Virus record (IMG/VR): IMGVR_UViG_3300025082_002282
Span: 1 to 64,000 of that record
DNA from: a virus
Strand: one strand, 5' to 3'
Length of the DNA: 64,000 bases
The position numbers were made by a program, and so were the translations under genes. Below, piece by piece: positions 11,686-64,000 of this stretch (position 1 is the first letter of the stretch; every line of letters begins with the position of its first letter). The notes beneath the pieces were generated by a model. The model was not told where the DNA came from and ran no database searches. It was given only the letters and a program-made list of their open reading frames with translations.

Positions 11686-11696
11686 AGGAAACAACT

Positions 11697-16804: not shown

Positions 16805-16810
16805 AATGAA

Positions 16811-17644: not shown

Positions 17645-17651
17645 TTCGCTT

Positions 17652-32511: not shown

Positions 32512-33188
32512 TGGCAAAGAGAATATTCATAACCGGATGTGCAAAGTCTGGCACTACTCTCTTGTTGAGAATGTGTTTTGCATTTAAAAATGCCGAGATT
32601 TTGTACAGGACGGGGTTTAACGGTCACGAGTTGACACTAAACGAGTTTCTGAACACGGAGACAGATAAAAAATTCTTGATAGGAAAGAGACTACCACCGT
32701 TTATCCTGAGCAACGTTCCCGCTCCAGAATTTGAGGACCAGCTTAGGTGGGTAAGACAGAACGATATAGGGATTATAAACGTAGTCCGAGATGGAAGAGA
32801 TGTTGTTTTATCGGATGGCGAGTATGTCAAACCAGAAAGATGGATATCATCGATGATACAGAGAGAGCAATATTCTGACATCATAGACATGGAGATTAAG
32901 TACGAAGACATAATAAGGTTTCCAAACAATATTCAGGAAAATATGATGAATGTTTTCGGACTAGAACGAAGTGCTCATTTTTCAGACTATCCTGACTTCG
33001 TCAAAGATTGGATATATGATTGGAATGTTTCCGTCACCGGCCGCGCCGGGAAGCAAGAAAGTGATTATGGAAAAAGAAAGCTTTCGGAAGTTTCAATAGG
33101 AAAGAATCTAGAAGCATATAAGGATCTTTGCACTGATGACCAATTAAATATCTTTAATGAGGAACTAAAAAAGGCGGGGTACATTTAG
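32511..33188 (+). CDS. Sulfotransferase
   Basis: 225 residues, start overlapping the previous stop by one base. The PAPS 5'-phosphosulfate loop GCAKSGTTLLL is at 9-19 and the 3'-phosphate motif INVVRDGRDVVLSD at about 90-103. These are textbook Sulfotransfer family motifs. The acceptor is probably a sugar. This second sulfotransferase is not closely similar to the one at 27261 and has the canonical loop. Confidence 0.8.
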   Translation: MAKRIFITGCAKSGTTLLLRMCFAFKNAEILYRTGFNGHELTLNEFLNTETDKKFLIGKRLPPFILSNVPAPEFEDQLRWVRQNDIGIINVVRDGRDVVLSDGEYVKPERWISSMIQREQYSDIIDMEIKYEDIIRFPNNIQENMMNVFGLERSAHFSDYPDFVKDWIYDWNVSVTGRAGKQESDYGKRKLSEVSIGKNLEAYKDLCTDDQLNIFNEELKKAGYI

Positions 33189-34036
33189 TGAACCTATTAG
33201 TGACCGGACATAAAGGATATATCGGCAATCATTTATTTTGGAAGCTAAACTCTCTAGGACACAGCGTCATGGGAATAGATTTGAAAATTGGTGAAGATAT
33301 ATTGGACGGTTTTCAGGAAAAACATTTTAGATTTAATCCGGATGTAATTTTTCATTTAGCTGCCATACCAAGAGTTGTATACAGCATTGAAAACCCTGTA
33401 GAGGTTATGCACAACAACGTTCACTCCACTTCTTTGGTTCTGGAATTTGCCAAGAAAGTAGGGGCAAAAGTTGTGTATTCCAGCTCTTCTTCTGTGGTGG
33501 GCAATGGTGAAGGTCCCGAGAGTCCTTATGCGTTGTCGAAGTATGTGGGAGAGTTAGAAACATTGCTATACAGCAAGCTCTATGGGGTCGACACAGTCGC
33601 TCTTAGATATTTCAATGTTTACTCTGTGGACCAAATCGCGGACGGACCGTATGCCACGTGCGTTGCAAACTGGAGAAGATATATCAAAGAGGGGACAACG
33701 CCTTATATAACCGGCGACGGAAATCAGCGTAGAGACATGGCGCATGTTTCCGATGTTGTTTCTGCTAATATATTTTGCATGGAGAACATAAAAAAAGTCA
33801 GTGGGAATGTTTATGATGTTGGCACTGGTAATAATATTTCGCTAAACGAGATGAAAGAACTGGTACTGAAGTCTTTACCGGACTTAAAATTTGATTACAT
33901 AGAAGATCGTCCTGGTGATGTGAGGCTAACTAAGGCGAATGTGCGACCACTTATGGATCTAGGATGGGCACCAGAAGTAGACATAACAAGAGGAATAGCA
34001 GAGTGTTTTACGGGGATTTTAAATGAGCAAGATTAA
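33188..34036 (+). CDS. NAD-dependent UDP-sugar epimerase (GalE/WbpP-like SDR)
   Basis: 282 residues from GTG 33188, overlapping the sulfotransferase stop. LLVTGHKGYIGNHLF (3-17), FHLAAIPRVVYSIENP, VYSSSSSVVG, catalytic SPYALSK (Y114, K118) and LRYFNVYSVDQ identify an extended SDR epimerase. RRDMAHVSDVV near 180 is the usual UDP-sugar epimerase substrate motif. It may interconvert Glc/Gal or GlcNAc/GalNAc forms. Confidence 0.8.
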   Translation: MNLLVTGHKGYIGNHLFWKLNSLGHSVMGIDLKIGEDILDGFQEKHFRFNPDVIFHLAAIPRVVYSIENPVEVMHNNVHSTSLVLEFAKKVGAKVVYSSSSSVVGNGEGPESPYALSKYVGELETLLYSKLYGVDTVALRYFNVYSVDQIADGPYATCVANWRRYIKEGTTPYITGDGNQRRDMAHVSDVVSANIFCMENIKKVSGNVYDVGTGNNISLNEMKELVLKSLPDLKFDYIEDRPGDVRLTKANVRPLMDLGWAPEVDITRGIAECFTGILNEQD

Positions 34037-40154: not shown

Positions 40155-40172
40155 TTTTTGGAAGATAAAAAT

Positions 40173-43100: not shown

Positions 43101-46100
43101 GAGAAAATAAGAGATCTGTTTTTGAAATATAGCGCGGACCTTTGGACGTGGAGGATTAAAGGCGGCCGCATGCGCCCTCAAATTGATTTTAAGAAGGAAG
43201 CCGATAATCTTAAGGAGGCTTTCACTGCCCTTAAAACAATCCTAAGAGCTAACGGATACTCCAACCCAAAGATGGGTGACGAAATAGAGATTACTTTTGA
43301 AGAAGTGTTGATGGAAAGAAAGGTCTCTAAAAAACCGCTTAAGACGGTCGAGGATCGTGCCGGTGTAGTTCCTGTCATGATCACATATAAGAAGCCTGGA
43401 GAATTTGAAGTGCAAAAGATTCTTCAGCGAGCCACAAAAAATATGCACAAGAAACATCCGTGGAATAATCCACGAACAATGAATTATTTGATGAATTTGG
43501 ACGATTTATATAAGGCGGCAATTGAGGACGCAAGAATATGCCTAGAGGACTTTGAAGAGCTTCTGGGAGCACCGAGAGAGAATATGTTTGAGGTTATCCA
43601 ACAATTCACAACTCCGTATGTAATAATACTGAAGGCTAATGCAAAATCGCAAATTAATTTACCATCGGAGGCAAAATTTTTTGGACCCATAAAGAGATGG
43701 CAAGACAAGGCAAACGAAGACTGGAATTTAGACGGCAAGAATCCAAAATCAACACTATTCAGGGACGGGATGATAAGGTTCGAAAAGGGAAAGACATATA
43801 GTATTATTGATCCGATCCCGAAAGAAGACCTTTGTACCTTAGAAGAGCTTTATCAGGAGTTTCTAGATAAGTTTGATTTCGCGGCATTATTTTGTAGTTA
43901 TGCGTCTTGTATACCAGCAATCCCGTGGCCGATAAAGTTTGACTGGGATTTTGATTGGAAAATGCCACCAATGCCGAAAATGCCCCGTTGGGATCCGTTA
44001 AGGATACTCATTCCAATGATTGAAGCAGCATTATTAGAAATGTTAATCGCATTTTTGTGCGGCTTGGTAAGAGGAATATTGGACCTTATTAAATTCCCCA
44101 GTTGTTCAGACTTGTTGGACTACGGTGCCTCTTTGTGGGACGATGCATGGGGGAAGAAAGAAGGCACAGATAAGAAATTGCTAGTGATGAAGGACGCCGC
44201 CAACGCACTGGATGAAATGGACCTTCCAGTCGAATCTTATTCGGACCTTGCGGATTTATTTGATACTCTCGCAAAGGCTCTTACGCCACCGGAAATGTGC
44301 TCTTTGTTGGAAGGAGAGGCAGATATAGAGACATTAATAATAGTAAAAGAATTGATGGAAAAGCATTATTCAGGACTAAGTGAGCACCTAAAGAATGAAT
44401 CTTTAATTGCAGAGTTTTTTGGATTGTTGGGTCGGTTTATAGATCCGGAATTATGCGCAAAGCTTTCAAACTCTGCTAACGTTGTCGTCGGTGATCTTTG
44501 TCCTGACATCGAATCCCCTACGTTGAGGGACCAATTGTTATCTCAAAACGCCACTCCGGAAGAAGTTTCTCGTGCCATTGTCGATTCGGAGAAGCGTCGC
44601 GCCGCCTTAAAGGAATTGATGGAGAATAATCCTTTGGACTCTCTTCTCGAAAAAATGAACCTTCCAGGACCATATGATACGGATAGCTCAAATAAGATGG
44701 CAAGTTTAGCAATAGAGTCTGTTGTACGCAATATAGCGATTGTTTTTAAAAATGATTTATCATTTTTTGTTCCTTCTTTGTTTGAAATGGATACGTCCCA
44801 GAAGGTTCCCGGCGACCCTGGATATAATCCTGTCGAGGGCGGACGGTACCAGTTTGTAGCAAACCACATTAAGTCGACACTTCCTAGAGTCCAGAGTGTA
44901 ACAAAAATCAGAGAAGCTGTCGCGGCTTTGTCGACGGCAGGCGCATCCGGAGTCAGGAACCTTAGTACCCTTGTCAATTCTCTGAGTGATTACAACGACA
45001 CTGTTGGTTTAGACCTCGTGAACCCGGACACTGGAGCCCGAGAAAACCTATATCATTATGAATGGGAAACCTATGAGTCCATCGGCACCACCCAGCGCAT
45101 CGGCCGATTCAAAACAGCAGAGGGCGAAGCGGCTGACATAAACGACGCTAATCAACTAGGGTTTACGATTGGCAGAAAAGGCAACGGCTTTGCAATATAT
45201 TGGAAAGGTGCGAACATCTTGAAAACAGGCAGCGGGGCTTGGGCTAATGATAACGCCGGTCGCACCGCCGCCATCGCAAAGATGGAGGAGGTAATCACAC
45301 AAGAGACTGCCGATGTGCAGCGTATCCCCAAGCCAGGGCGAATGGATGTTGATCGCGTCGCAGGACATAAAGTAGTGACGTTTGAGCAGCTTCAAACGGG
45401 GGCCGGTGAGGATAAAGAGCCAGCTTTCTTCGATTTGTCCGACCCTTCTGACAGTGCTCTTATGCAAGATATTTTAACTTTTCCCATGAGGAATCTCAAA
45501 GATGAGGTAAAGCCGTCTCCTGTGTTGAGGAGCATACTAGAACAAGAGCAATTACAAGAAATACAAGAGAGATTCGTCAAGTTTGAGCTTCCATCTGAAA
45601 AAGATATGATTTATCAAGAAAATTACTTTGAAGGTGAAGACATAAGAGATTGCTTTAGCTTGGAAAGACCAAGTAGACTATTTTTTAACTTGGGAGAACC
45701 GGAGATGCTTTGGGAGAATAAAACCTACAACGGATACCTGTCAGAAGAGACTATTAATACAAGATTGCTAGCAAGAGACATCTCCAGGCAAGAGGGCCCA
45801 AAACACTTACGTTCTGGTGCTTTTTCAGAAATGTTTTTAAGTTCTTGGTCAAATACTCTTCAAAGAGTTTATCCGAATATGGGACAAGGCGGCCGCCTCG
45901 ACCTTGCAAGAAGGGTAAACGGACACGGAAATAGTTTGTGGAATAAACTAAATGGTGGTCTTGGAAAATCGGTCACCCATCCGCAAGACTCTTACAGGGT
46001 GACTGCGAATATGCTACTAGACAAGGTGGGAGAAGGTATTCGAAATTCCAGATATTTTGATGTAGAGCAAATAAAAGATTTGGCAGACAGAATCTCTGCA

Positions 46101-48862: not shown

Positions 48863-49258
48863 ATGGCTGGTATATCAGTAAAATTGCCATTAGAGCGCGA
48901 CGCTCAAGATGGATATGCCCTAAACAAGACAACTCTAGAAGCAGTAAAACAGAATCTTAAAATGGTCGTTTTGACATCACCCGGAGAGAGAGTTATGGAA
49001 CCGACCTTCGGTGTTGGTCTAAAGAGGTTTTTATTTGAATTAGCCAACGAACATACTTACGACAATATCAGAACAACGATCACATCGCAGGTGGGGAAGT
49101 GGTTACCATTTATAAAGATTTTGGGGATAGCGATTAGAGGACCGGATGACAACACTTTTATATCAAGTGGCGTACCATTGTCTATACAAATACAATATAC
49201 GGTACCGGGATTGAATACTGCGGATATTCTTGAAATAAGTATGCCCGAAACTACTTAA
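48863..49258 (+). CDS. gp25: Baseplate wedge protein gp25-like
   Basis: 131 residues, AGGAGATTAATT ribosome binding site. The core is typical of the GPW/gp25 family: NLKMVVLTSPGERVMEPTFGVGLKRFLFELAN (about 32-63), then IRTTITSQVGKWLPFIKI. In T4, gp25 links the wedge to the sheath start and is shared with type VI secretion (TssE). The fit of length and motif makes this a firm call. Confidence 0.9.
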   Translation: MAGISVKLPLERDAQDGYALNKTTLEAVKQNLKMVVLTSPGERVMEPTFGVGLKRFLFELANEHTYDNIRTTITSQVGKWLPFIKILGIAIRGPDDNTFISSGVPLSIQIQYTVPGLNTADILEISMPETT

Positions 49259-49276: not shown

Positions 49277-51070
49277 ATGCCAAAAAAAATAATTCCTATA
49301 AAATATACCAATAGAGACTTTTCTTCGATAAGAGAATCATTGTTGGAACATGCAAAAAGGTATTATCCAAATACGTATAGGGATTTTAACGAAGCTGGTT
49401 TTGGCTCCTTAATGATCGATACGGTGTCTTACGTCGGCGATGTTTTATCATTTTATTTAGACTACCAGGCAAATGAGTCATTTTTGGAAACAGCAGCAGA
49501 GTATGAGAATGTTCTCAAGTTGTCAAAATTTTTAGGATTTAGTTTTAACAAGGCACCCTCTTCCTACGGAACGTGTCAGTTTTATGCTTTGGTACCTGTA
49601 TCAGTAGCCACTGGCGGCCCGGATACTAGATATTCACCAACTTTGAAGGCGGGATCTACGGTAGCTACTGCTGGAGGTGTGTCCTTCACACTACTTGATG
49701 ATGTGTCTTTTGCAGACTCGGTTAACGAAGTTATTGTAGCAAAAGTGAACGATGACACCGGGGCACCTACATATTTTGCTGTTAAAGCGGAAGGTAGAAT
49801 CGTATCTGGGGAATTATTGGAACACGTGGAAACGGTTGACGCATTCGAAAGATTTCTTAAGGTGGTCATCCCGGGAGATAATGTTTCTGCGATTGTTCAA
49901 GTAACGGACTCCGAGGGTCACGAATATTTTGAGGTTGAGCATTTATCGCAAAATTCTATTTATAAGCCTGTGACAAACAAGAACGCAAAAAACGATTCGG
50001 TTCCAAACATCCTGAAGAAGATAGCAGTCCCTAGAAGATTTGCAGTGGAACACCTCGACGACACAACCACTATTCAATTCGGATATGGATCTGAGAACGA
50101 ACTGGTGAGTGGCTCAATCGCAGACCCCGCAAACGTTGCCCTCAAGAGACACGCAAGAGAATATATATCAGATACAAGTATCGACCCTACAAAACTTACT
50201 TCTACTGATAAGTTTGGCGTAGCACCTGCGAACACTATGCTATCAGTCGTATACCGATCTAATACTTCTGAGAATGTTAACGCGGGTTCTGGCCAAGTAA
50301 ATCGAGTCGTTGATGCTGTAGTGGACTTTGACAATGTTGCTTCCTTGAATGAGGATATAAGGCGATATGTTGTAAATTCAATAGAGGTTTCGAATGAGGA
50401 TCCAATAGTCGGAGATATAAGCATTCCCGGCGTCGAGGAACTGAAAATCCGGGCACTGGGGAACTTCTCTGCCCAGAATAGAGCTGTTACAAGACAAGAT
50501 TATATAAGTATGGCGTATGCAATGCCAGGGCACTTCGGCGCAATAAAGCGATGCACCATTTTCAGAGATAACGACTCTTTTAAGAGAAATCTAAATATGT
50601 ATGTTATTTCTGAGAACGCCGAGGGACACTTGGTGAGAGCAAACAATACTATAAAACAAAACCTAAAAACATGGCTGAATGGTGTTAGAATGATTAATGA
50701 TACTATTGATATATTAGACGCTTTTATTATAAATGTTGGCGTAGAGTTTGATATAGTAATAGAAGAAAACGCTAATAAGTATGAAGTATTGAGAATGGCA
50801 CAGTTGGCGATAGAAGAGCAGTTTCTCTTGCAAAGAGAAATGGGAGAGCCAATAGTGGTTTCCGACTTTTTTAAAGCACTAAAAGATGTAGAGGAAATAG
50901 TGGATGTTGTTAGTGTTAGGGTGGTTAATAAATCCGGATCACCGTATTCATCACTTGATTATGATATTAAAGGAAATTCGTCAAAAGATGGGAGAGTAAT
51001 ATACGCTCCTCGTACTGCGGTCTTTGAATTAAAATATCCGGAAGTTGATATAAAAGGTAAAATTGTTTAA
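49277..51070 (+). CDS. gp6: Baseplate wedge protein gp6-like
   Basis: 597 residues. Starts IIPIKYTNRDFSSIRESLLEHAKRYYPNTYRDFNEAGFGSLMIDTVSYVGDVLSFYLDYQANESFL, the hallmark N-terminus of T4-like gp6/J-type wedge proteins; I cite only the reading here, key residues being RDF, GS, DTVSYVGD and YQANE. EELKIRALGNFSAQNRAVTR (about 388-407) and YISMAYAMPGHFGAIKR follow, also conserved. It follows gp25 as in T4. The 3' end overlaps the next ATG by one base. Confidence 0.9.
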   Translation: MPKKIIPIKYTNRDFSSIRESLLEHAKRYYPNTYRDFNEAGFGSLMIDTVSYVGDVLSFYLDYQANESFLETAAEYENVLKLSKFLGFSFNKAPSSYGTCQFYALVPVSVATGGPDTRYSPTLKAGSTVATAGGVSFTLLDDVSFADSVNEVIVAKVNDDTGAPTYFAVKAEGRIVSGELLEHVETVDAFERFLKVVIPGDNVSAIVQVTDSEGHEYFEVEHLSQNSIYKPVTNKNAKNDSVPNILKKIAVPRRFAVEHLDDTTTIQFGYGSENELVSGSIADPANVALKRHAREYISDTSIDPTKLTSTDKFGVAPANTMLSVVYRSNTSENVNAGSGQVNRVVDAVVDFDNVASLNEDIRRYVVNSIEVSNEDPIVGDISIPGVEELKIRALGNFSAQNRAVTRQDYISMAYAMPGHFGAIKRCTIFRDNDSFKRNLNMYVISENAEGHLVRANNTIKQNLKTWLNGVRMINDTIDILDAFIINVGVEFDIVIEENANKYEVLRMAQLAIEEQFLLQREMGEPIVVSDFFKALKDVEEIVDVVSVRVVNKSGSPYSSLDYDIKGNSSKDGRVIYAPRTAVFELKYPEVDIKGKIV

Positions 51071-53007
51071 TGGCTATTAAGAGATATCTTGCTAATGCAG
51101 ACACTACAATAACTAATGCCTATAAGATGAACTTGTCAACTCGTGGCACCGGATCTAACATGGGTGAGTCTGATGTGCTGGAGGTATTCTCCATTCTTGG
51201 TCAGGCTTCAACTAGTTCTGTGGAGAAAACAAGAGCACTACTTAAATTTCCCGTAGGCACAATCAACACAGACAGGAGTAATGGAAATATCCCAGAATCT
51301 GGAAGTGTTAAATTTTATTTACGAGTTTTTAATTGTCCTCACGGTCAGACACTTCCGAAACAATATGATATGCAAATTTTGCCCCTTTCCAGGTCTTGGT
51401 CCGAAGGACAGGGTCTTGATATGGAAGAATACACGGATGAAGACGAAGCTAATTGGGTAATGGCTTCTGCGACCAAAAGACCACAAATAACAGATGTCAA
51501 ATTTTTGACGACTAATGAACAACTCTTAAAACAAGAATATTTTACCTTATATAATTCGTCAAATACAAGATACAATTTTGTTTTTACAACACAAGTGGGA
51601 GAGACATTCTCGGGATCACTGCCGGGAATTGAAATAGTTGTGCCATTGACGGGGAACATGTCCGCCGTCAAAGATATAGCTAGCGTTTTTAGTGCTTCTA
51701 TAAACGTATATGAAACAGGTCTTTCTGCTTCAATTTCTGCAGAGGACACATCTGATACATCGGGAGCGACAATTAGAGTAACCACGACCGGCTCGTCCGG
51801 TCAATCTGGATCATATCAGGGCACCGTATCCACAGATCATTTATCTTTAACGACTGTGCAAGAGGGTGGCAAAACGAAATGGACGACAGCGGGTGGTGAC
51901 TATCATGAAGTGGGGTACACAGCAGGAAGAAACCTTCCTCACTATGTTAAGAACTTTCAAAACGGAACAGAGAATCTAGAAGTTAATATAACAGCACTAG
52001 TAGAAGAATGGATTGCAGCTGAGTCAGCAGACGATCCGGATAGAGAAAATTATGGCGTTATGCTAAAAATGTCTGGATCTTATGAAGATGGCACTAGAAA
52101 CCGTTCTTATTATACAAAGAAGTTTTTTGCGAGAGGGTCCGAGTTCTTTTACAAGCGACCGATAATTGAGGCCAGATGGGATGATTCGAAAAGAGATGAC
52201 AGATCAAATTTTTATTTGAGTAGTTCTTTATTACTGGGCGAAGACAACTTGAATACCTTGTATCTTTATAATATAGTGAACGGAAAGTTAAAGAATATTC
52301 CTGTCTTGGGCGGCGCATCCGGGAGTAATAACGCTTATACACAAATAAATGTACAAGTGTTTCCGTCTGGGAATGTGAAAAATCAAGTTATAAAGCCAAA
52401 AACACTTCCAATCGGTGGCGGTGTGACTGTAAATGCGGCGACTGTTATAACTGGCGGTTGGGTGAGCACCGGCATATATTCCGCATCCTTTGCTTTTACG
52501 GGATCAGAAAGTGAAATATTCGATGTCTGGAGTAAGCCAACGAAGGTGGTACAGGGAATACAATTAGTTACGGGGTCGACGTTTAAAGTGAATAAGCACA
52601 AGACCTATGATTATAATCCAAGTACCACATATATCACAACTTTAAAGAATCTCAAATCATCTTACTCGCAGAGTGACAAGGTGCGAATAAGATTGTTTGT
52701 TCGCCCAAAGGACTGGCAACCAAACATATATACTGTGGCGTCGAAGAAAGCGGAACCATCGATAATTAAAGACGCATATTACAGAGTATTCAGATTGATA
52801 GATCAGTTTGATGTAATTCCTTTTGGTACCGGAAGCGGAGCCCAATCGAAATACACTAGAATGTCGTATGATAAGAATGGTAATTATTTTGATTTAGAAA
52901 TGTCCCTTTTTGAGTCGGACTACGCTTACGGTATTCAGCTGGCTTATGATACGGACGGCAAACACACAGTACAGGATAAGATTTTTAAATTTAGAGTTGA
53001 GAAGTAA
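51070..53007 (+). CDS. Virion structural protein with DNRLRE-like domain
   Basis: 645 residues. The N-terminus (YLANADTTITNAYKMNLSTR, MGESDVLEVFSI, KTRALLKFPVG) resembles the DNRLRE/CBM96 beta-sandwich. A middle part is Ser/Thr/Gly-rich, with TTGSSGQSGSYQGT near 240. The C-terminal third (DKVRIRLFVRPKDWQPNIYTV ... RVFRLIDQFDVIPFGTGS) is beta-rich and may bind the baseplate. It lies between gp6-like and the giant LamG protein, where T4 has gp7. Confidence 0.65.
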   Translation: MAIKRYLANADTTITNAYKMNLSTRGTGSNMGESDVLEVFSILGQASTSSVEKTRALLKFPVGTINTDRSNGNIPESGSVKFYLRVFNCPHGQTLPKQYDMQILPLSRSWSEGQGLDMEEYTDEDEANWVMASATKRPQITDVKFLTTNEQLLKQEYFTLYNSSNTRYNFVFTTQVGETFSGSLPGIEIVVPLTGNMSAVKDIASVFSASINVYETGLSASISAEDTSDTSGATIRVTTTGSSGQSGSYQGTVSTDHLSLTTVQEGGKTKWTTAGGDYHEVGYTAGRNLPHYVKNFQNGTENLEVNITALVEEWIAAESADDPDRENYGVMLKMSGSYEDGTRNRSYYTKKFFARGSEFFYKRPIIEARWDDSKRDDRSNFYLSSSLLLGEDNLNTLYLYNIVNGKLKNIPVLGGASGSNNAYTQINVQVFPSGNVKNQVIKPKTLPIGGGVTVNAATVITGGWVSTGIYSASFAFTGSESEIFDVWSKPTKVVQGIQLVTGSTFKVNKHKTYDYNPSTTYITTLKNLKSSYSQSDKVRIRLFVRPKDWQPNIYTVASKKAEPSIIKDAYYRVFRLIDQFDVIPFGTGSGAQSKYTRMSYDKNGNYFDLEMSLFESDYAYGIQLAYDTDGKHTVQDKIFKFRVEK

Positions 53008-56000
53008 ATGAGTTTAAAGAACCTTTTTAGCAAAATTAGCTCAAAACATATTTTGCCAGAGTCAAGTGTCAATGATCTTCTGGAGGACATCGAGTCTGGC
53101 CGGTACATTGATGAATACATAAAGAGAAAGGCTAGATTCTTACCTCACATTGATTACGCCACCGCTTCGAACTTTGCTCGATTTGGATTAGCCGAGGAAT
53201 ATTATGATTCTGCGGCAAGAAGAATCTATCAGACTTATCCTTACGACGGATCCTCATATGAAAAGATTAAATGGATCAACAATTCAAACGGTTTAGATCT
53301 TTACGTATTTGATAACGAATATCCCAGAACACACGGACATGCTAGATTTTCACCCACAGGTTGGGGGTCTAGAACATCATTGTCGGGGAACTATGGTAAT
53401 CCAGCAACAAAAGAATACATCTACATTAAAGGTGGACCCAACGTTGACAACATTTGGCATACGGCAAGCAACAGAACATCCAACCTTGAAATAGATGGCA
53501 ACAAGGGCAACACAGTAGAATTTTGGCTTAAAAAATCTGCTTTCCAAACATTGACAAAGAGAGAAGTTGTCTTCGACGCTTGGACAACAGGCTCTGTTCC
53601 TTCGGGACACCAATACGGTCGCCTAACTATAGAGCTGGACAGGACGAGACCACAAGAAGACTCTCCTTGGGTAGTTACTTATCAATCTGCTTCAAGCGGC
53701 GTTAAGAACCTTTATGTTTCCGGCACGGCAGGCTTGTATGCAAGCGCATCAGACGGCGAGTGGCATCACTATGCATTCAGTTTTCAGAATACTGGTAGCC
53801 AAGTTAACTTTAGGCTACATGTCGACGGCGATTTAAATCATTCTGTATTGACTGGTTCTTCGATAGGAAATTTGAATACTGCGATAGTTGCAAACATCGG
53901 CGCATTGGTCGCAGCAAAGGATTCAGATCCACAACCACGTCTGGGTCCATCGACTACGACCAATCCTGGTCTTGGTTTTGGTAAGCTTTCCGGCTCTATA
54001 GACGAATTCAGATTTTGGAAAGCAAAAAGATCCTCTAAAGATATAGGAAGGTATTGGTTTACTCAAGTACATGGAGGGACCAACACAGATGACCCGAACA
54101 CAGATCTAGGGGTGTATTACAAGTTTAACGAAGGCATAACCTTAACAAGCAGCATAGACCAAATTGCTTTAGATTATTCTGGTAGAATTTCTAATGGTAG
54201 TTGGACAGGATATAGTTCTGATAGCAGGAGCACTAAATCTGCGATGATTCAATCGTCGGCTTCTTTAACGGAATTTGCAGAACCGATAATCCACACAGAA
54301 AATCCCAAAGTTAATGAATATCTGGACGATATCTTGGAGAAGGGAAGAAATTATGACATCAACAACAACTCTTCCATATACAAGTCTGTGCCAGGATGGA
54401 TATTAGAAGAGGATGACGAGGGGGAGTTAAAACAATTAACTCAAATAATGGGAGCTTATTTTGATGAATTGTTTATGCAAATACAGTCTTTATCTAAACT
54501 CAAGCACGTAAAGAGTGAGAACTATAGCAAGAAGCCCTTGCCGTTTATGGATAAGGTTCTTAGGTCTATGGGGTTTGAAACACCGGAAATATTTATTGAT
54601 GCCGATGTCCTGGCGAGTTTGGCGTCTCGTGACGAAGAAAAAGAGTTTGAACAAAGACTTGAAGATGTTAAGAATGTTATATATCAAAATATATACAATA
54701 ACTTAATCCACATATACAAATCCAAAGGAACAGAAAAAGCTTTCCGCAATTTGCTTCGCTGTTATGGGATTGATGAAGAGGTAATTAAGATAAATGTTTA
54801 TGCTGACGGTGTGGATTATCCAGTTGAGCAAAACTATCGTGTTGGCAGTTTTAAGACAAGGTGCATTAATTTCAATAGACCAGCTAATTTTTCATCGACG
54901 ATTTATCAATATAGTTCGAGTCTTCATCATTCGGGTAAATCATCAGAGTTTCCTGTTTCCGGATACATAACGGGTGCCCACGCAAACGATTCCGCTGTTG
55001 GACTCTCTTTCACAACAGAGGCAGAAGTGGTGTTCCCGATCCGCCACCGCGCCGGTACCGTCCTTCATTTTGACACGCCTATTTCTAGTTCTCTTTTCGG
55101 CGCACATACAGTCTTGGATAGTCACGGCGACACGCATGATTTAACGTGGAAGGCAGCAGCAAAAGATTTTGCCAACTTTGAAGTATACGCAGTTAAAGAC
55201 AGAGAAGATTCTAGGCATGCTAAATTCGTTGTTAAATCAACTTCTGGCATTGTAGCACCAGTAGAAACTGGCATATATTATGATGTTTACGATGGAAACA
55301 AGTGGAATTTTGCAGTGAGGGTCGCCCCAAAGGGAACCTTCGGAAATACAATTTCTGGTTCAACGAACTCTTATAATTTAGAACTCTTTGGAGTGAAGAC
55401 GGATGCTGGGGAGGTAAAGGAGGAGTTTCTCTTAACTTCTTCTCTAACCAATGCTCAAGGACAGAGGTTCCATCAGTATTCTAAGAGATTATATGCCGGT
55501 GCACATAGACGCAACTTCACAGGATCTACGATTGATTTATCTGATGTCCAGCTATCTTCCTTGAGACATTGGATGTCTTACTTGGATAATGAAACAATCA
55601 GGTCACACGCTCTGGATCCTAAGTCATACGGTGTTCCACACCCAATGAGGAATGCTTATACTTTTATGCCAGGTCTGGATAATCCGGTACCGACAATAGA
55701 GACACTAGCGTTAGACTGGGGTTTCAACACAGTAACTGGGTCTACAAAGGGCGGCCAACTTATTATACGAGATTTTTCTTCTGGGTCTCTTAAGAACAAG
55801 AGAGATTACGGATGGATAGGTGACGTTATCTCTTCTAATCATCCTGGTCGCGGCAACTTCTTTCCTTCTGAGACAACTGCAAGCGTGTCTGTTGCCTACT
55901 TGCAAACTGCTAGACAACAGATTCTCGAAAACGTTCACAGCTCTGACATGATTAGGGTATTAACAAGGGATGACACAACATATACAAGAGAGTCTCGACC

Positions 56001-59000
56001 GGTCAATCACTTCTTTTCAATAGAGAAGAGCATGTATCAGGCGATTTCAGAAGAAATGCTGGATATGTTCGCAACAATTAAAGATTTTAGCAATCTTATT
56101 GGAGACCCTGTAAATCGTTATCGCCCGAATTATAAGGCGATGGAAAAACTTCGAAGCTTATTTTTCGAGAGGGTTGAGAATACTCCAAGCATAGAAAAGT
56201 ATATTGAATTTTATAAGTGGATAGATGCTTCTATCTCGCAAGTATTGGACCAACTAAAACCAGCAAGTGCTAACTTCTCAGAAGATGTTCGAACGATGAT
56301 AGAGAGTCACGTACTTGAAAGGAACAAATATTGGACAAAATTTCCAACACTTGAAGGGAAGCAAGCGGAACCAGAGCCAGGACAAATAAAGTCAGTTAAT
56401 GAGATGTTGTATAATTGGCGATACGGTCACGCGCCATTGCCGTCAGCCACCGGCCCGGTTGCAGCCACCGCAACAATAACCATCACGGCGTACACCGAAC
56501 TCAACGCCGGGGACAAGGTAAACTTGGTTGCTGCTGATGGCACTAGTTATGATTTTGAACAAGGCGACCAAAGTTCTGTCAACGGCACATTTGAAGCTAC
56601 TACATCAAACGAGCAAACAGCAACTAACCTGATGAATGTTATTAACACTTCATCGGGACCAGCAGGGGCAAGGTTTACTGCCACCGTTGATGGAGCAGTT
56701 GTAACTGTAACCCAGGCAACACCAGGCTCCGCGGGCAACACGAGCGTTACTTTGACAGATAGTGGTACTGCTGGCATGACTAAAGCAAATTTTACTGGCG
56801 GCACAGATAATAATAGGTCTGAAACCGAAAACTGCCTTTGGTGGAGTGAGCGCGCAAGCAGGAAGGACGCACCTCTTACTACCGGTATCGCTGCAACCGA
56901 TGCAGAAAGAGAAACGCTTAGAAGGGTCGCGATTGCAGACGTTTCAGGGTCGACATATGCTTTAAGAAGATTGACAAAGCCATATAGATTTAAATTAGAG
57001 TTGCAGCCGGTGCTTCATGGCGGTGATAATTTTCACCTAAATAAGAAAAAGGATCTTTATCTTGGAACCTCGAATCCTGGTGCGTTGGATTTCATCCGTA
57101 TCAGTGGTTCCGATGTGACCTTCGCCGGGGGAGAGTGTACTGACGTTTATAATCCAAGAATAAATCTTGGAGCACCATATTCAACTACAACTACAGGCGA
57201 AGCAGGCGGTGGCACTGTCATCGAAAAGAAGAAGGCATTTGCAAAAGCAGACATTAGTAACACAAATTCTGACCACGATCTTAGTACAATAGCACCGTTT
57301 AGTCTCTATAGCAGTTCTATAGACGATCCTAAAGATTACAAGGCAGAGATTTATGATAATTTCAAGAAGGGTGTGGATATAACGAATCTTCATTCGGATG
57401 CTTATGGGGATGATAGGGAGATCCCAATTCAGTCTCCTTTCACGGAACATTGGGTAGGGGGTCACTCCCATAGGCATCAACATTTAAATATGATGCGTCC
57501 GAAGATACCGCAAGCAGACCCAGGATTGCAAAACATCACAATGAGTCTAGACCACGCTGGACGCAGGTTCGAGGGATTTAATCTTACAATGTCTCAGGGA
57601 CAACTATATGTTACCTCTCCAAACTTGTATGCCTTGAATCATGAGCCACCAGGAACATTTAATGTCTCTCTTACATCTAGTACACATAACAGGTCGAGAA
57701 TACTAAGAGAGCCTCTAGCAAAGAGACCGGTCAATATAAGAAATATAAAGACAACAGCTAGTGAATACGCGAAAGATACGGTTTTAAATATTGGTAACTA
57801 CAAGCATCCATACGAGATTGTTCAGGGAACATCTGTGGAGATGAGTCCCGCATTTTTAATAGATAACCACAACACTCTTTTTGGAGCTAGGACAGAGTAC
57901 TCAAGTAGTTTTGACACCGCCCCATACTCCAACCCGCCCAGCGGGTGGTTAACGAGCGGAACCCCAGGAATAAAACAGCATGCTGATGATGCTTCATTGA
58001 AAATTTTGGCGTTTACTGGCTCGGGCACGGCGTATTCATCGATAACAGATCCTCCGGTTGATAGCGGATATTATAGATGGGCACAATTGGATAAAAGATT
58101 CAATGGACAACTTACAATTAACTATAAATTTATAATGGCTTCTTCTACAACTTCGCACTTGGGATATAAATACGGACTGACTAATGCACCAGAAGCTGGA
58201 GATAGTAATCCTGAATCCCTATATCTTCAATATCAGTTAGGTCATACGGGTTCTTGGGTTACTTTACAACAACTATATGTAAAGAGCGAGTACGGAACCG
58301 GATTCACGCCTGCAACCGCCTCTACAATAAGCGGAGACAACATTGCTCTTCGCTGGATCACGAGGATGTTGTCAAATGGAGATTATGATCATTGGGGCGT
58401 TGATGAGGTTAAGATTACGTCCAAGGGCACAATTGAGCAAAAGTTTCCATCACAATATTTTGTTGAAATTGATGATCGTGTCAGACCTCATCGCGCTGCC
58501 AGAAAGAACGTTTTCGTAAATAGATTTTCAGCACCAGGCGGACCAGAGACCGCTGGAGACGCCCACGGTGGACCAGGTCTTGATATAGCGACAAATCAAT
58601 ATTCTGTTTATAATTCACTAAACTATAGAAACATGATGCCGAGAATGGCACTGGACGAGTGGTCAATGGACAGGGCAGGCAAGTTTGGACATGTTAGTAA
58701 CAGTTCAATAACCGCCTCTAGTCCGACCGCATCGTATCACAAGGTTTATCACAACCCTCGATACGTCGCTACTGCAAGTTGGGAATCCGGAGTGGAATGC
58801 AGAATAAAACACGACAACCAGTTTGTGCAACATCAGATACCTCAGAGTGATCTAGGGTATGCTTGGATAAAGAATTCTACAACAGAGACTACCTGCAGTT
58901 ATGCAAGACTAGAATCTAAGTTTACATACCCAAAAGCACAATCGGATCAGACGGTTTACGAAACCAATGAAGCAAACGCCGTCGATTTTGACTCTCCAGG

Positions 59001-62000
59001 GTTTGTTTCTGCAAGTGACATGGGCTTTGGTCATTATGGTGCTAACGGCAGGGTCCTCACTACTCGACCTGATGTCCTTGGTGGAGGCTCATCGCTGGTG
59101 GGATTCGAGCCAGTAGATTTTGCTGGATTAAATTTTATAGTTGTCGAGCCGATATCTTCAAGCTATAATCTGCTTGGATATGATGATGTGAGTGTTAAAT
59201 CTGTTGGCGGTGTTTATTCGAGAGTAAATTATTTAGCAGCCCGAGATGACGGCGCACGTTTTCGCTCTAATGTAGCGCACGGCACGCTGTCGCCAGATGT
59301 GTTTAAGTGGGACGCACATCTCTTAAATGCGATCTTGTCAAACAGAAACGGTCCATACGGTTATCCTTCTTGGAAGCAACTGAGAGCAGGGCAGCATCCA
59401 GTTGCTAGAAAGCTTCGAAGGGACAACATAATGGCACCTATTGTGGAAAGGGATAACGCACTAGTAAACTCATTCTCGCCTGCTTATTTTACTAGAGGTG
59501 ATTATTCTTGGCCAGATAATATAGACCACCAGAGAGCAAGAACAAGCAGGACAATTAGTGCTCAAAGATATCGCTTTACAGAATCTGCAGTAACATCAAA
59601 ATTCGGACCCCTCAAAACAACAATGATAGGCAAGTCTGTAGCTGGACTAGCCAATTCGTATGGGTCCTGGAGGGACGCTCATTCTGCTGGTGGTACCCAA
59701 ATTTCTGTAGGGGGAAAGGTTACGCACGGAAACGATTTAGTCACTTTTTCAAACCCGGAACTGGTAAACTTTTTACAAATAGACGAAAAAGCATCAGCCA
59801 CTCCGTTGAGAGATAAAATTGGAGCGGACATTATTCAGTCGCTATATTCTGAAACAATATATCCGAGAGATTCCAATTCTTATTCAAACAGAGTTAGAGG
59901 AAGAGAAAATTTTATCATCGACTGGTGGAAGCCAAAGAGAGCGGACAGGCGAACTATAGATAAGCACAACTCTCAGGGATTACACATTGGATTAACTAGC
60001 AGCATGTGGCCACTCGATGCACAAACAAATTTTGGAACATCTAACGAAATAGCTCTGGGCACAGACATCCCGGGAGCCTTCGGAGAAGGTGAATTAATGT
60101 CTTCTTATTGTTTGTTTCGTTCAGGTGGAGTTGGCTTGGGCGCATATCCAACCGCTTCAGCCATGTATGCTAGAAAGTTTCCAGAAGAAAATTATATATT
60201 TAATTTAACATTTAATACGACAGTTACAGAAAAATACTGGGGCGGCGCAAGCGACGGCGATCATACATCATATTACATACAGTTTTATCCTCCTGAAGCC
60301 TCTGCCGTGGTGCATTATATATATTTTTGTAGGACTGCCGAGACTGCAAGCGTAAACAATGCGGCTGACATCGCCGTCGGAGCTAACAAAATATGGATCC
60401 CCCTTTCGGAAAGTAGCTATACAACAACTACACTCGCATCAGCTGTCAAAGATGGGCTTAATAGTAATTCTATATTTAAAAAAGTTGCAAAAGCAGAATC
60501 AAGCACCAATAAACTTAGTCTACATTTTAAGGGCACTTGGGACAATTCTTATGTCGGCGGTGATTATTTGGCGGATGAATATTCTGACTTCACCATCGAT
60601 GGTCAAATCATGATCGGCTACCTCGACACGAGCCCCGTTTTTCTATCGGCGTCCTCCAATACTAGCACTTATTTGGCTGGTGCAGCAAAGTGGGAAGCTG
60701 GTGAGATGGCAGGACGCGATCCTTTTAATTATAAGGATTATGATGATTACGCGATGCAGATGAGATTAATTGGAAAAGATTATTCTATAGTTCCTGAATA
60801 TAGAATTAGTGAGGAAATGCCAAACTATATTGGTAGAGCCGCAGCGGATCCCTATTTTTCATGCCCACAGGCAGATTTTTTGCAGATGACCGGAGCACTG
60901 GATGATTTTGCTGATAGTAGTAAATCAGATTTTTTCAAAGTCTACGGACATAGTGACTTTATAAAATACTTTGACATTGTGAAGGAAGGGCATAAAGAAC
61001 TGGCAATGTCAGAGAACAGTCTAACTCTCAGGTGTAAAGCGATGAAAAAGTTTCTTCCATATGAAGGAATATATCCAGCACAGAGAACTTTGCAGTTAGC
61101 AACTATGTTTAGTGAATCATACGGTCCACAAACTAATGTTGCGGTTGAAAAATTCGGGCAGACGAAGGGAGGATACGAGCCTTATGGAAGTTGGAGAACA
61201 GCTTTACAACCTTTTTACGCTCCAGGAATCGCCTACAATTCTATAAAATCTGGCATTGCTGTTGATTATCCTGTCTTTACTCCCAACAGAGATAGAAAGT
61301 TTAATTTGTTTTGTACGACATTCGACAAACAAGACAACAATCATATTAATATAGGACAAGCCAGCGAATGGGCGCAGCTTATATCTGGAAGTCATGGTAA
61401 AAATTCATCCGCTGCCAATTCCGGATTAAGTATATCGATGTGGGTTTATTTTGATGAAGATCCTGATGCAGACGGCAACACTGATACTTCCGGAAGCTTG
61501 TTGGTATTCAAGGATGATGATAATGCTACAGAGGGTATTCATTTTACAAAACATGGCGGCCGCCTGATGCTATCGATGTACACCGATGCATCAAATTATA
61601 AAAAGTGGTGGACAAAGCCATATAAGTCCTTAACAACTGCAGATAAATGGTACCATGTCGCCGTCGCAAAGAAATTTGATACATCTACACCAGATTTTTA
61701 TATCGACGGCGTACAAATCGAAACTCAAGGGGCTGCTACCGCTGCGGGAATAACTGGCACCGCCGGGAGTTTAACGGAAACGTCCGTTAACATGGACGGT
61801 CATAGCACAACAGCAACCGGAAATTGTACCATAGGAAATCACAGATATGGGCACACCAACACTAATCATGCTCTCAACGCAATGGAAGTTGCTATTTCTG
61901 AAGTCAGTATTTTCAATACAAAGTTGACGGACGAGTCTGTTAGAGGACTCTTCGGCGGCGGCGTCAGGCAGCGTGGACCCTGGCGACCAGATTTGTGTGT

Positions 62001-64000
62001 GGAACAGCCTCATGTGGATAACTTAATAGGGTGGTTCCGAATGGGAAACGACACTGGTTATGTCATGGCTGGAACTTCTGGTTCTATAACAATGACAAAC
62101 AATCTTGGATTAAATAATCATGCTATGCCTCTGTACAGGAAGACTCTTGTCGGCGGCGGCAAAGGTTCTTTGGCTGGAGTCGAGACCACGACTAAGGGCA
62201 AATTTGTAGGATTTACAGATGCTTGGTCAGCTGGTGCCCAAACTGGATATGGAATTACATTGTTGGGAGAAAACGGCGTAGACACAAACATGGAACTAAC
62301 AGGGGCTTTTCAATATCCTTCCTACATCACTGGTTCCGCGTTTAACGAAACATCTGATTTCGGCATACCACGCATCGGTTCTGCCAGCTGGGGGGAACAT
62401 CAGGCGAAAGGAGCAGACCCAGAGTTGGCGGAAGCAACGTCTTATTGGACTCAGGGAGATTATGGAAGAAATTTTGGTACATGGGGCGTCCAACGTGTTG
62501 AAAGACTTCCGTTTGAGGTAATTATTGATCCAACCCGCTTGGTCACAAATACAGTTAAAAATATTGGCACAGCCAGAAATGTTGCAAGATTAGACGAGAG
62601 GTTCACCTTTTACGAAATGGAGCCACACCCAAGTGCCAGTTTACAGCCATGCTCATTCTTGAGAAGTAGGTCATCTGGATCGGCAGATACTGGTGCTCGA
62701 CACCTACCCCATCTTTCAACTGTGGTTCCGGAAACATACTGGGGGGCGACACACCAAACACCGATAACCTCTTCTATGTTGACCGCTAGTTTTAGTTTGT
62801 CGAGAATGCGGGTCTTGAGTGACACGACATACTCGAAGGCAGCTAACAATTTTTTTGCTGAAAGTTCAAGATTCTTTTTGGAGGGGGGACATACTACAAC
62901 TATCGCATCCGAAGATACGTTACAGACTGCTGTAGATCCGAGTAAAACATACAAGTTCCGATTGAGGTTAAATCGTCCCAATACGCAGGACTTTCCGATG
63001 TATAATCGTGCGGCTGCATTTGGACCACCAATCAACGCAGGACCTGGTGATCATGGATTGAATCGGTCACAGAACTACGTAGGTCATGGATTCGCCCCGT
63101 ATACTCCACCTCATTATGACAATTATGCAGAGGTTGAATATATATTCAATCCGTCCGTTGGCGTCTCATATGAGACCATAGAAGATGTTCTTAACAGGAT
63201 AACCGAACAAAATAGTTTGGGCACCGCAACCATTAACTATAATAGGTATATTCAGGGTACTGGTTCAAAAAACAATTTTGGAATTTCAGGAATTACAAAT
63301 AGTGATTATGTGTCGGGTCCAGGCATCAGTACTGATTTTCAAAGTATCAATGCCGCGACTGCATCTTTAAATAAAACACATGCGATGCAATTGTCTGCTA
63401 GTTTTTATGGTATGGATTTGGCACAAGGAAGCCTGGTTCCAATATTTGAGGGAACAGAAAGAGATAGGGACATTCTTCGAAAATCGTGGGTTATACAGAG
63501 TAAGTGGGAAACCCCAAATATGGATTTTCGTAAGACCACCCCTGCAAAAGCAAAGCCTCATTATATAACCACTGCGAAAGGGATGTGGCACCAAACAGGA
63601 GCGTATGATGATCCCAGTTCGTTTATAGAAATTATGCCACCAATTGATGGGTCTGAAGATTTGTCAAGTTTATTAGGTGTTCATTTTAGAAAAGGTGAGC
63701 GAAAAATAAAGGAGCAAAGAGCCCTTTCTATCGGACAATTGCCAGAAGAGCGTAAAGTATCGGAAGCGGTTGTTGCGATTCCGTTTGTGGAAGATGAGAG
63801 TGGCAACAGAAAGTTCTTTAACATTCCAAAGAACGAGGTATATAAGGCTGTCCAGAACGAGGGGTATCCAAATTACAAGAAAGCGTATATTGATACTGTT
63901 GAGGGACGAAGACTTAGACACGGTCGCGGTCGTAACAAGGGGACAACCACAGAAGTCGTGGCAAACCCCATATCATCCCGGACAAGTATTCAAACAATGG
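53008..64000 (+). CDS. Giant baseplate/adhesin-type structural protein, open at right edge (at least 3,664 codons)
   Basis: ATG 53008 lies directly after the previous stop. I read every codon to 64000 and found no stop. The N-terminal region includes a LamG-like domain (about nt 53400-54050; GEWHHYAFSF, SGSIDEFRFWKAKR). IYKSKGTEKAFRNLLRCYG (nt 54709-54765) resembles phage tail protein I/gp7-type cores. An Ig-like insert lies near nt 56460-56815, a lectin-like beta domain near 57840-58430, an insert near 60180-60660, and a second LamG-like domain near 61390-62060. Core segments in between look conserved in marine T4-like phages (KAMKKFLPYEGIYPAQRT). Position suggests the gp7/gp8 place of the wedge. 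The C-terminus is outside the window. Confidence 0.85.
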   Translation, partial: MSLKNLFSKISSKHILPESSVNDLLEDIESGRYIDEYIKRKARFLPHIDYATASNFARFGLAEEYYDSAARRIYQTYPYDGSSYEKIKWINNSNGLDLYVFDNEYPRTHGHARFSPTGWGSRTSLSGNYGNPATKEYIYIKGGPNVDNIWHTASNRTSNLEIDGNKGNTVEFWLKKSAFQTLTKREVVFDAWTTGSVPSGHQYGRLTIELDRTRPQEDSPWVVTYQSASSGVKNLYVSGTAGLYASASDGEWHHYAFSFQNTGSQVNFRLHVDGDLNHSVLTGSSIGNLNTAIVANIGALVAAKDSDPQPRLGPSTTTNPGLGFGKLSGSIDEFRFWKAKRSSKDIGRYWFTQVHGGTNTDDPNTDLGVYYKFNEGITLTSSIDQIALDYSGRISNGSWTGYSSDSRSTKSAMIQSSASLTEFAEPIIHTENPKVNEYLDDILEKGRNYDINNNSSIYKSVPGWILEEDDEGELKQLTQIMGAYFDELFMQIQSLSKLKHVKSENYSKKPLPFMDKVLRSMGFETPEIFIDADVLASLASRDEEKEFEQRLEDVKNVIYQNIYNNLIHIYKSKGTEKAFRNLLRCYGIDEEVIKINVYADGVDYPVEQNYRVGSFKTRCINFNRPANFSSTIYQYSSSLHHSGKSSEFPVSGYITGAHANDSAVGLSFTTEAEVVFPIRHRAGTVLHFDTPISSSLFGAHTVLDSHGDTHDLTWKAAAKDFANFEVYAVKDREDSRHAKFVVKSTSGIVAPVETGIYYDVYDGNKWNFAVRVAPKGTFGNTISGSTNSYNLELFGVKTDAGEVKEEFLLTSSLTNAQGQRFHQYSKRLYAGAHRRNFTGSTIDLSDVQLSSLRHWMSYLDNETIRSHALDPKSYGVPHPMRNAYTFMPGLDNPVPTIETLALDWGFNTVTGSTKGGQLIIRDFSSGSLKNKRDYGWIGDVISSNHPGRGNFFPSETTASVSVAYLQTARQQILENVHSSDMIRVLTRDDTTYTRESRPVNHFFSIEKSMYQAISEEMLDMFATIKDFSNLIGDPVNRYRPNYKAMEKLRSLFFERVENTPSIEKYIEFYKWIDASISQVLDQLKPASANFSEDVRTMIESHVLERNKYWTKFPTLEGKQAEPEPGQIKSVNEMLYNWRYGHAPLPSATGPVAATATITITAYTELNAGDKVNLVAADGTSYDFEQGDQSSVNGTFEATTSNEQTATNLMNVINTSSGPAGARFTATVDGAVVTVTQATPGSAGNTSVTLTDSGTAGMTKANFTGGTDNNRSETENCLWWSERASRKDAPLTTGIAATDAERETLRRVAIADVSGSTYALRRLTKPYRFKLELQPVLHGGDNFHLNKKKDLYLGTSNPGALDFIRISGSDVTFAGGECTDVYNPRINLGAPYSTTTTGEAGGGTVIEKKKAFAKADISNTNSDHDLSTIAPFSLYSSSIDDPKDYKAEIYDNFKKGVDITNLHSDAYGDDREIPIQSPFTEHWVGGHSHRHQHLNMMRPKIPQADPGLQNITMSLDHAGRRFEGFNLTMSQGQLYVTSPNLYALNHEPPGTFNVSLTSSTHNRSRILREPLAKRPVNIRNIKTTASEYAKDTVLNIGNYKHPYEIVQGTSVEMSPAFLIDNHNTLFGARTEYSSSFDTAPYSNPPSGWLTSGTPGIKQHADDASLKILAFTGSGTAYSSITDPPVDSGYYRWAQLDKRFNGQLTINYKFIMASSTTSHLGYKYGLTNAPEAGDSNPESLYLQYQLGHTGSWVTLQQLYVKSEYGTGFTPATASTISGDNIALRWITRMLSNGDYDHWGVDEVKITSKGTIEQKFPSQYFVEIDDRVRPHRAARKNVFVNRFSAPGGPETAGDAHGGPGLDIATNQYSVYNSLNYRNMMPRMALDEWSMDRAGKFGHVSNSSITASSPTASYHKVYHNPRYVATASWESGVECRIKHDNQFVQHQIPQSDLGYAWIKNSTTETTCSYARLESKFTYPKAQSDQTVYETNEANAVDFDSPGFVSASDMGFGHYGANGRVLTTRPDVLGGGSSLVGFEPVDFAGLNFIVVEPISSSYNLLGYDDVSVKSVGGVYSRVNYLAARDDGARFRSNVAHGTLSPDVFKWDAHLLNAILSNRNGPYGYPSWKQLRAGQHPVARKLRRDNIMAPIVERDNALVNSFSPAYFTRGDYSWPDNIDHQRARTSRTISAQRYRFTESAVTSKFGPLKTTMIGKSVAGLANSYGSWRDAHSAGGTQISVGGKVTHGNDLVTFSNPELVNFLQIDEKASATPLRDKIGADIIQSLYSETIYPRDSNSYSNRVRGRENFIIDWWKPKRADRRTIDKHNSQGLHIGLTSSMWPLDAQTNFGTSNEIALGTDIPGAFGEGELMSSYCLFRSGGVGLGAYPTASAMYARKFPEENYIFNLTFNTTVTEKYWGGASDGDHTSYYIQFYPPEASAVVHYIYFCRTAETASVNNAADIAVGANKIWIPLSESSYTTTTLASAVKDGLNSNSIFKKVAKAESSTNKLSLHFKGTWDNSYVGGDYLADEYSDFTIDGQIMIGYLDTSPVFLSASSNTSTYLAGAAKWEAGEMAGRDPFNYKDYDDYAMQMRLIGKDYSIVPEYRISEEMPNYIGRAAADPYFSCPQADFLQMTGALDDFADSSKSDFFKVYGHSDFIKYFDIVKEGHKELAMSENSLTLRCKAMKKFLPYEGIYPAQRTLQLATMFSESYGPQTNVAVEKFGQTKGGYEPYGSWRTALQPFYAPGIAYNSIKSGIAVDYPVFTPNRDRKFNLFCTTFDKQDNNHINIGQASEWAQLISGSHGKNSSAANSGLSISMWVYFDEDPDADGNTDTSGSLLVFKDDDNATEGIHFTKHGGRLMLSMYTDASNYKKWWTKPYKSLTTADKWYHVAVAKKFDTSTPDFYIDGVQIETQGAATAAGITGTAGSLTETSVNMDGHSTTATGNCTIGNHRYGHTNTNHALNAMEVAISEVSIFNTKLTDESVRGLFGGGVRQRGPWRPDLCVEQPHVDNLIGWFRMGNDTGYVMAGTSGSITMTNNLGLNNHAMPLYRKTLVGGGKGSLAGVETTTKGKFVGFTDAWSAGAQTGYGITLLGENGVDTNMELTGAFQYPSYITGSAFNETSDFGIPRIGSASWGEHQAKGADPELAEATSYWTQGDYGRNFGTWGVQRVERLPFEVIIDPTRLVTNTVKNIGTARNVARLDERFTFYEMEPHPSASLQPCSFLRSRSSGSADTGARHLPHLSTVVPETYWGATHQTPITSSMLTASFSLSRMRVLSDTTYSKAANNFFAESSRFFLEGGHTTTIASEDTLQTAVDPSKTYKFRLRLNRPNTQDFPMYNRAAAFGPPINAGPGDHGLNRSQNYVGHGFAPYTPPHYDNYAEVEYIFNPSVGVSYETIEDVLNRITEQNSLGTATINYNRYIQGTGSKNNFGISGITNSDYVSGPGISTDFQSINAATASLNKTHAMQLSASFYGMDLAQGSLVPIFEGTERDRDILRKSWVIQSKWETPNMDFRKTTPAKAKPHYITTAKGMWHQTGAYDDPSSFIEIMPPIDGSEDLSSLLGVHFRKGERKIKEQRALSIGQLPEERKVSEAVVAIPFVEDESGNRKFFNIPKNEVYKAVQNEGYPNYKKAYIDTVEGRRLRHGRGRNKGTTTEVVANPISSRTSIQTM

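Follow-up and report, generated by a model that had tools for sequence, protein, structure and literature searches.

A giant, probably gp7-type baseplate wedge protein with exchangeable, putatively adhesive modules in an uncultured marine T4-type myovirus

In a contractile tail, it is through the baseplate wedge proteins that contact with the host leads to contraction of the sheath. A single open reading frame of 3,871 codons in the virus record IMGVR_UViG_3300025082_002282 probably encodes a gp7-type protein of this class, belonging to an uncultured marine T4-type myovirus and possessing built-in adhesion modules that can be exchanged. This reading draws on gene order, on homologues of the protein's core in Microcystis phage Mel-JY01 and Flavobacterium phage vB_FspM_immuto, on a motif match to cyanophage gp7, on the gp23 capsid gene of related contigs, on LamG domains, and on the comparison of modules among relatives. 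Throughout, the window covers bases 1 to 64,000 of a record 66,991 bases long; the giant frame was read on in the full record. The features of the giant and of the genes preceding it are collected in Table 1.

Table 1. Features of the putative baseplate operon and of the giant protein; residue numbers refer to the giant.
Feature	Position	Strand	Residues or length	Basis or distribution
gp25-like baseplate wedge gene	48863..49258	+	131 aa	phrog_261 E 2e-19, phrog_43 E 8e-11
gp6/J-like baseplate wedge gene	49277..51070	+	597 aa	phrog_10646 E 6e-16, phrog_219 E 9e-16
Protein between gp6 and giant, function not assigned	51070..53007	+	645 aa (480-773 aa in relatives)	
Giant protein, probable wedge protein	53008..64000, on to record 64623	+	3,871 aa	open frame
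LamG-1 (ConA-like)	53395..54237	+	about 130-410	Pfam Laminin_G_3; kept in 53/53 relatives
Putative gp7-type helical core, first half	54280..54807	+	425-600	AF2 model, profile match to cyanophage gp7
Lectin-like beta sandwich inside core	54820..56022	+	605-1005	Foldseek; family-wide, absent from immuto
Putative gp7-type helical core, second half, KPASANFSE motif	56035..56451	+	1010-1148	AF2 model; immuto and Mel-JY01 matches
119-aa cassette (ATATITI...KANFTGG)	56464..56802	+	about 1153-1265	at other sites in relatives
Module B1	56821..57867	+	1272-1620	in 48/53 relatives
177-aa module	57877..58407	+	1624-1800	weak Reelin-subrepeat-like match; absent from near-identical L004
Module B2	58450..60207	+	1815-2400	in 53/53 relatives
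Conserved module C1	60595..61332	+	2530-2775	comparison of relatives
LamG-2 and following 216 aa	61345..62697	+	2780-3015 (LamG-2)	one small clade
Conserved C-terminal module C2	62815..64000, ends record 64620	+	3270-3871	no solved structure alike

A single reading frame and its relatives

The giant frame begins with an ATG at 53008 and, as an earlier note on this DNA had described, continues without an in-frame stop to 64000 and off the end of the window. Extended in the record, the frame occupies 53008-64623 on the plus strand, its stop codon (64621-64623) ending 623 bases past the window. The predicted chain has a pI of 5.9 and a computed mass of 429.8 kDa, in agreement with the earlier estimate of more than 400 kDa. 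Over the same stretch the other five frames contain 150-342 stops, and the chance probability of an open frame this long is ~4e-102 at the local base composition. No in-frame Shine-Dalgarno-ATG combination or internal start site was found inside the chain, and two more ORFs lie 3' of it, one of 319 aa that starts at the giant's stop codon and a second that runs off the record.

Searches of IMG/VR with the first 734 residues recovered 21 loci, while a single C-terminal query, consisting of the last 537 residues, recovered 215 matching stretches, indicating that the family is large. Contigs L003 and L005 carry the identical 3,871-aa chain, copies on other contigs are identical or 98% identical, and contig L004 encodes a chain of 3,688 aa that lacks a single module. 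Relatives complete at both ends include 66 single ORFs (53 non-redundant) of 2,634-3,962 aa, with a median of 3,190. Comparison of the giant with two relatives, L006 and L029, gave pN values of 0.24-0.27 against a pS of ~0.82, and the chain is under purifying selection along its whole length, in every segment.

These observations bear directly on the possibility that the frame is an artefact of assembly or annotation, created from fused genes or a chimeric contig, which the earlier note had named as a potential refutation. Sequence errors may occur in contigs of this kind, as seen in one fragmented relative (L082:1020-11221) where the giant gene is broken into six ORFs, perhaps by sequencing errors or decay. 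Nevertheless, the occurrence of the same chain on several contigs, the 53 complete single-chain relatives, and purifying selection on each segment leave an artefact with next to no probability, and it is taken as refuted.

A T4-type gp23 capsid gene was present in 10 of the 10 large contigs of relatives tested (155-205 kb), which argues that the relatives of the giant are T4-type myoviruses of roughly 190 kb. With the exception of distant core homologues, the family is missing from 50,697 phage records. Outside LamG the giant was unmatched by PHROGs and Pfam, and 60 core members compared with the same collections gave scattered weak matches only.

Gene neighbourhood and the gp7-type core

The giant stands last in the gene order gp25, gp6, 645-aa gene, giant, and this arrangement is repeated, as gp25-gp6-X-core homologue, in the two phages that encode the closest cultured relatives of the gp6/J-like protein, namely Mel-JY01 (32% identity over 99%) and immuto, where the counterpart is annotated 'baseplate wedge protein' (31% identity). 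In both phages, one or two genes separate gp6 from the core homologue within the same operon. The homologues themselves are far shorter than the giant. Mel-JY01 WWT39511.1 (1,336 aa) and an ORF of the uncultured phage LR756508 (1,400 aa) comprise module A, the core, with a portion of its lectin-like domain, and share the giant's gene neighbourhood, but are without modules B and C and amount to about a third of its length. Similarly, immuto gp109 (1,265 aa) contains both helical core halves and follows the 'baseplate wedge protein' in the same operon, but has neither the lectin-like domain inside the core nor modules B and C. The two core halves match the immuto family in order, with E values of 6e-16 for the first and 1.8e-7 for the second. 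No virion data on the homologue were found in papers about Flavobacterium phages of the Baltic or about large aquatic phages.

An AlphaFold (AF2) model of residues 420-1150, made with 60 relatives, predicts helices, a beta sandwich, and helices again (pTM 0.69). Within the first helical half, at about residues 567-591, lies the motif IYKSKGTEKAFRNLLRCYGI; the giant core thereby displays the gp7-type pattern FY.SKGT..SF, whose counterparts are FYSSKGTSRSFQFVIRTLFG in cyanophage gp7, FYSTKGIEASYKFLFKVL in T4 gp7, and HKGTIGAIRRVVEPLGY in P2 gpI. Aligned with a cyanophage gp7 profile, the core gave a match with a probability of 73.7%, an E value of 2.9e-5 and a score of 40.5, spanning only about 34 columns. 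None of 150 column shuffles reached this score (the best was 23.4), and unrelated slices scored at most 19, the single high-scoring 'decoy' slice being one that contains the motif itself. Cyanophage gp7 and T4 gp7 match one another at the same motif with an E value of 2e-8, and PHROG side matches join the two as well.

The relationship to better known proteins is less direct. Genes of the gp7/gpI family are expected immediately behind gp25 (W) and gp6 (J); here the operon and the order agree, but the 645-aa gene intervenes between gp6 and the giant, a point against the assignment. T4 gp7 (1,032 aa) and P2 gpI (176 aa; Tail_P2_I, PF09684) share with the giant a short KGT-type motif and a place after gp6/J, but no significant profile match: in hhalign comparisons with the giant core the motif is visible at E values of 0.01-0.1 and probabilities of <5%. 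Direct membership in the T4/P2 (Tail_P2_I) family is therefore not claimed. The giant has no match among the wedge families of Pfam or PHROG, gp7 was not among the 50 best Foldseek matches of the core model, which were to lectin-type and other unrelated folds only, and profile searches of the core and the C-terminus against the PDB returned nothing meaningful. Thus, of the earlier proposal that core segments resemble T4-like wedge proteins, a wedge-like core with a gp7-type motif and gene order stands, whereas similarity across the T4 protein does not. By its motif and its place in the operon, the core is putatively gp7-type.

A different explanation is that the giant is a separate tail-fibre or adhesin protein encoded beside the baseplate genes, in which the similarity to the KGT motif is coincidental. 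LamG and lectin-like domains are characteristic of adhesins, and long stretches of the giant have no known relative, both of which would suit such a protein. Coincidence is difficult to reconcile with the shuffles and decoys that fall short of the motif score, or with a place after gp25-gp6 that is kept in the Microcystis and Flavobacterium phages and in cyanophage gp7; furthermore, PF09684, run against genomes G000-G008, turned up no other gpI candidate. A stand-alone adhesin is accordingly considered unlikely, and a gp7-type wedge protein remains the preferred reading.

Other genes in the window also merit description. A second giant ORF, listed with a TTG start and 2,900 aa long, lies just upstream of gp25 at 40158-48860; neither PHROG nor Pfam gave it a noteworthy match. 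The ORFs at this position in relatives measure about 1,600-2,100 aa or more, and L019 has two pieces there. The regions 10744-24577 and 33188-34036 encode glycosyltransferases, a Nol-like carbamoyltransferase, nucleotide-sugar epimerases and a formyltransferase-like gene, a cluster that probably functions in glycan or nucleotide-sugar modification, and a PhoH gene is also found in the earlier part of the window.

Giant gp7 proteins of cyanophages

The earlier note regarded a chain of this size as huge for a baseplate, a view that the databases contradict. Prochlorococcus phage P-HM2 possesses a gp7 gene of 13,365 bases encoding 4,454 aa, situated between gp6 and gp8 and after gp25-gp6, and the counterpart in Synechococcus phage ACG-2014f, likewise between gp6 and gp8, has 4,225 aa. 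Wedge proteins above 400 kDa are thus already on record, and PHROGs includes a wedge family of 4,179 positions; the cyanophage giant gp7 is probably phrog_2885. Cyanophage gp7 genes of 13.4 kb (L158:4319-17683) and 12.7 kb (L159:4920-17597) have the KGT motif in common with T4 gp7. No paper discussing a wedge protein of more than 400 kDa was found. In one study, gp7 is said to be missing in pelagi- and cyanomyophages and seemingly replaced by VrlC (PMC7029224). That description is at odds with the 4,454-aa gp7 of the P-HM2 record, and the motif links these giants to gp7.

The cyanophage proteins resemble the giant in belonging to T4-type phage, in following gp25-gp6 in the operon, in exceeding 3,800 aa, and in possessing the motifs P.[WF]I and FY.SKGT..SF in the same order. 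They differ in that no similarity is detectable outside the motif region, that the motif is found at about residue 215 as compared to about residue 570 in the giant, and that gp8 is directly next and no extra gene separates gp6 from gp7.

Lectin-type domains and the modular chain

Two LamG-like modules and a lectin-like module had been proposed from the sequence. Laminin_G_3 matches the giant in two stretches with 50.3 bits, against a curated Pfam cut-off of 27.6, and LamG-2 taken alone scores 49.3 bits (E 8e-13); in relative L008, LamG-1 lies at 157-345. The predicted sandwich inside the core is most similar in Foldseek to pentraxin (E 1.1e-5), followed by legume lectins and LamG, and has a ConA-like fold with pLDDT values mostly of 70-94. 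Because the core halves are separated by 417 positions in the giant as compared to 78 in immuto, the sandwich is either an insertion relative to immuto or has been lost in immuto.

None of the 53 relatives lacks the N-terminus, LamG-1, either core half, the core lectin, B2, C1 or C2. The presence of LamG-1 and the core lectin in every one of them indicates that these are old parts and not recent insertions. Other segments are more restricted. For residues 1150-1268 and 1624-1800, closely matching sequence in the equivalent position is limited to copies of this phage itself, to which L004 is added for residues 1150-1268; this is the outcome of a strict comparison, preferred to a per-segment count of 7 for residues 1155-1265 that gapped alignments inflate. 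LamG-2 and the next 216 residues are confined to one well supported clade. The gene in L004, a 190-kb contig, shows no mismatch over its initial 2,700 bases, residues 1624-1800 are missing, and mismatches pile up only near the missing module (24 and 44 per 300 bases), a pattern such as might be left by recombination exchanging the 177-aa module. To judge from these comparisons, modules are gained, lost and exchanged in-frame, and in this way the chain grows and changes. The earlier suggestion of a wedge protein enlarged by inserted adhesion domains is therefore partly sustained, in that inserted modules are found relative to other phages, but it does not extend to the family-wide LamG-1 and core lectin.

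For the C part, the AF2 model (pTM 0.73) has no match in the PDB, and in BFVD matches uncharacterised viral proteins only, one of them labelled uncultured marine virus. Modules B and C have no match in Mel-JY01, immuto, or the T4 neighbours gp8 to gp12, and a DNA-level search of phage records with B2 and its surroundings found none. One T4 match, between residues 2197-2619 and a homing endonuclease (E 0.003-0.01), was taken as chance.

A cassette with many insertion sites

An Ig-like module had also been proposed for the chain, but no Pfam Ig model matches, and the stretch concerned is most likely the 119-aa cassette that follows the core. Pfam gives only weak, unrelated matches to the cassette, the best PDB match has an E value of 0.38, and there is no PHROG. 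In IMG/VR the cassette occurs at 76 loci (three of which are the phage's own copies), most at 66-90% identity; it was not found in cultured phages, nor in 84,980 prokaryote genomes by a scan that detects close relatives only.

Fifteen of the 78 cassette-bearing ORFs belong to the giant family, and within that family the cassette occupies different places: near residue 211 in L278 (within LamG-1), 640 in L281, 717 in L269, 925 in L290 (within the core lectin), about 1495-1560 in L283 and L297, and residue 1150 in L307, the same place as in the giant. The cassette is found, too, inside relatives of the 645-aa neighbour, among them L271. Among the giant-family copies, identity is 76-87% inside the cassette as compared to 23-44% in the flanks, and at both edges DNA identity drops from 0.6-0.97 to background. 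For 7 of the 8 chains examined an empty site can be recognized, with no more than 25 aa between the flanks in most of the 70-93 loci compared, or 48-93 cassette-free loci per chain; the counts include redundant loci, and the sites represent about six separate positions. The L282 cassette replaces about 355 residues instead of forming a clean insertion. Across 49 cassette copies, neither target-site duplications (flank repeats of 4.18 versus 4.17 when shuffled) nor terminal inverted repeats (3.80 versus 4.09) were evident.

Domain shuffling is known in phage tail proteins, including Ig-like ones (Smug et al. 2023, PMC10684548), and the cassette is similar to such domains in being common, at high identity, to otherwise unrelated virion proteins. 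It differs in having no recognised fold and in occupying several sites within one protein family, and several clean insertion sites within one family seem unusual. A speculative proposal, to which a rather low probability is attached, sees the cassette as a mobile module at the protein level in uncultured marine phages, a self-contained domain carried in-frame into the surface loops of baseplate and tail proteins through a mechanism that is dedicated to this or at least unusually frequent; the giant would then be a docking frame for interchangeable adhesion parts. With several precise sites available, a domain-insertion mechanism in virion proteins becomes directly testable.

Split genes

In some relatives the chain is encoded by two or three genes. 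Five of them (L038, L041, L042, L045 and L087) have a two-gene chain that is divided near residue 2,000-2,100 or a little further on, in several cases within the B2-matching region near residue 2000-2100, and three others (L061, L083 and L014) have a boundary after module A. Both boundaries are present in L070, which has a LamG-like ORF (L070:3708-5180) between A and B; this ORF occupies the place of the giant's cassette. Most junctions consist of overlapping or adjacent stop and start codons accompanied by a ribosome site (AGGAG, GAGG), so the splits look like genes and not like frameshifts. On the core tree each kind of split needs two changes, the starred branches forcing two for B/C and one for A/B, and L087 sits among single-chain relatives; depending on where the tree is rooted, the changes may represent fusion or fission.

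The natural splits imply that each of the modules A, B and C can be produced as a polypeptide of its own, and separate A, B and C genes fit a wedge built of several parts. They also raise the question of whether the giant is a polyprotein-like precursor, translated as one chain from which a protease releases a gp7-like wedge protein (A) together with one or two proteins of the wedge periphery (B, C), a form of processing that the earlier note had anticipated. Separate genes with proper junctions, and two kinds of split, neither of which the tree explains by a single change, are consistent with a precursor. It is nonetheless judged quite improbable, given that the single chain is kept in 53 non-redundant complete relatives, that no cleavage motif was noticed (the search was not systematic), and that the 4,454-aa gp7 of cyanophages is likewise annotated as one chain.

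A scaffold that may also adhere

For a gp7-type wedge protein that stays intact, the following arrangement can be proposed, in which the position in the baseplate, the copy number and the absence of proteolytic processing are presumed. The two helical stretches of the core (about residues 425-600 and 1010-1148) would form part of the gp6-gp7 wedge bundle, in which a gp7-type protein associates with two gp6 copies, and would join gp6 in each wedge. The core lectin, LamG-1 and LamG-2 would project outward to the host surface where, as lectin-type domains, they presumably bind and hold cell-surface glycans, and the chain would thus be scaffold and adhesion device in one. Modules B and C would extend the wedge periphery and replace other proteins located there, probably doing work that T4 splits among several wedge genes, and exchange of modules would adapt adhesion.

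The size of the giant has precedent, but no description appears to exist of the family itself, its lectin-interrupted core, the module swap or the cassette with its many sites. If the proposed role is correct, host recognition in common ocean phages would be written into the scaffold of the baseplate, and not only into separate fibres.
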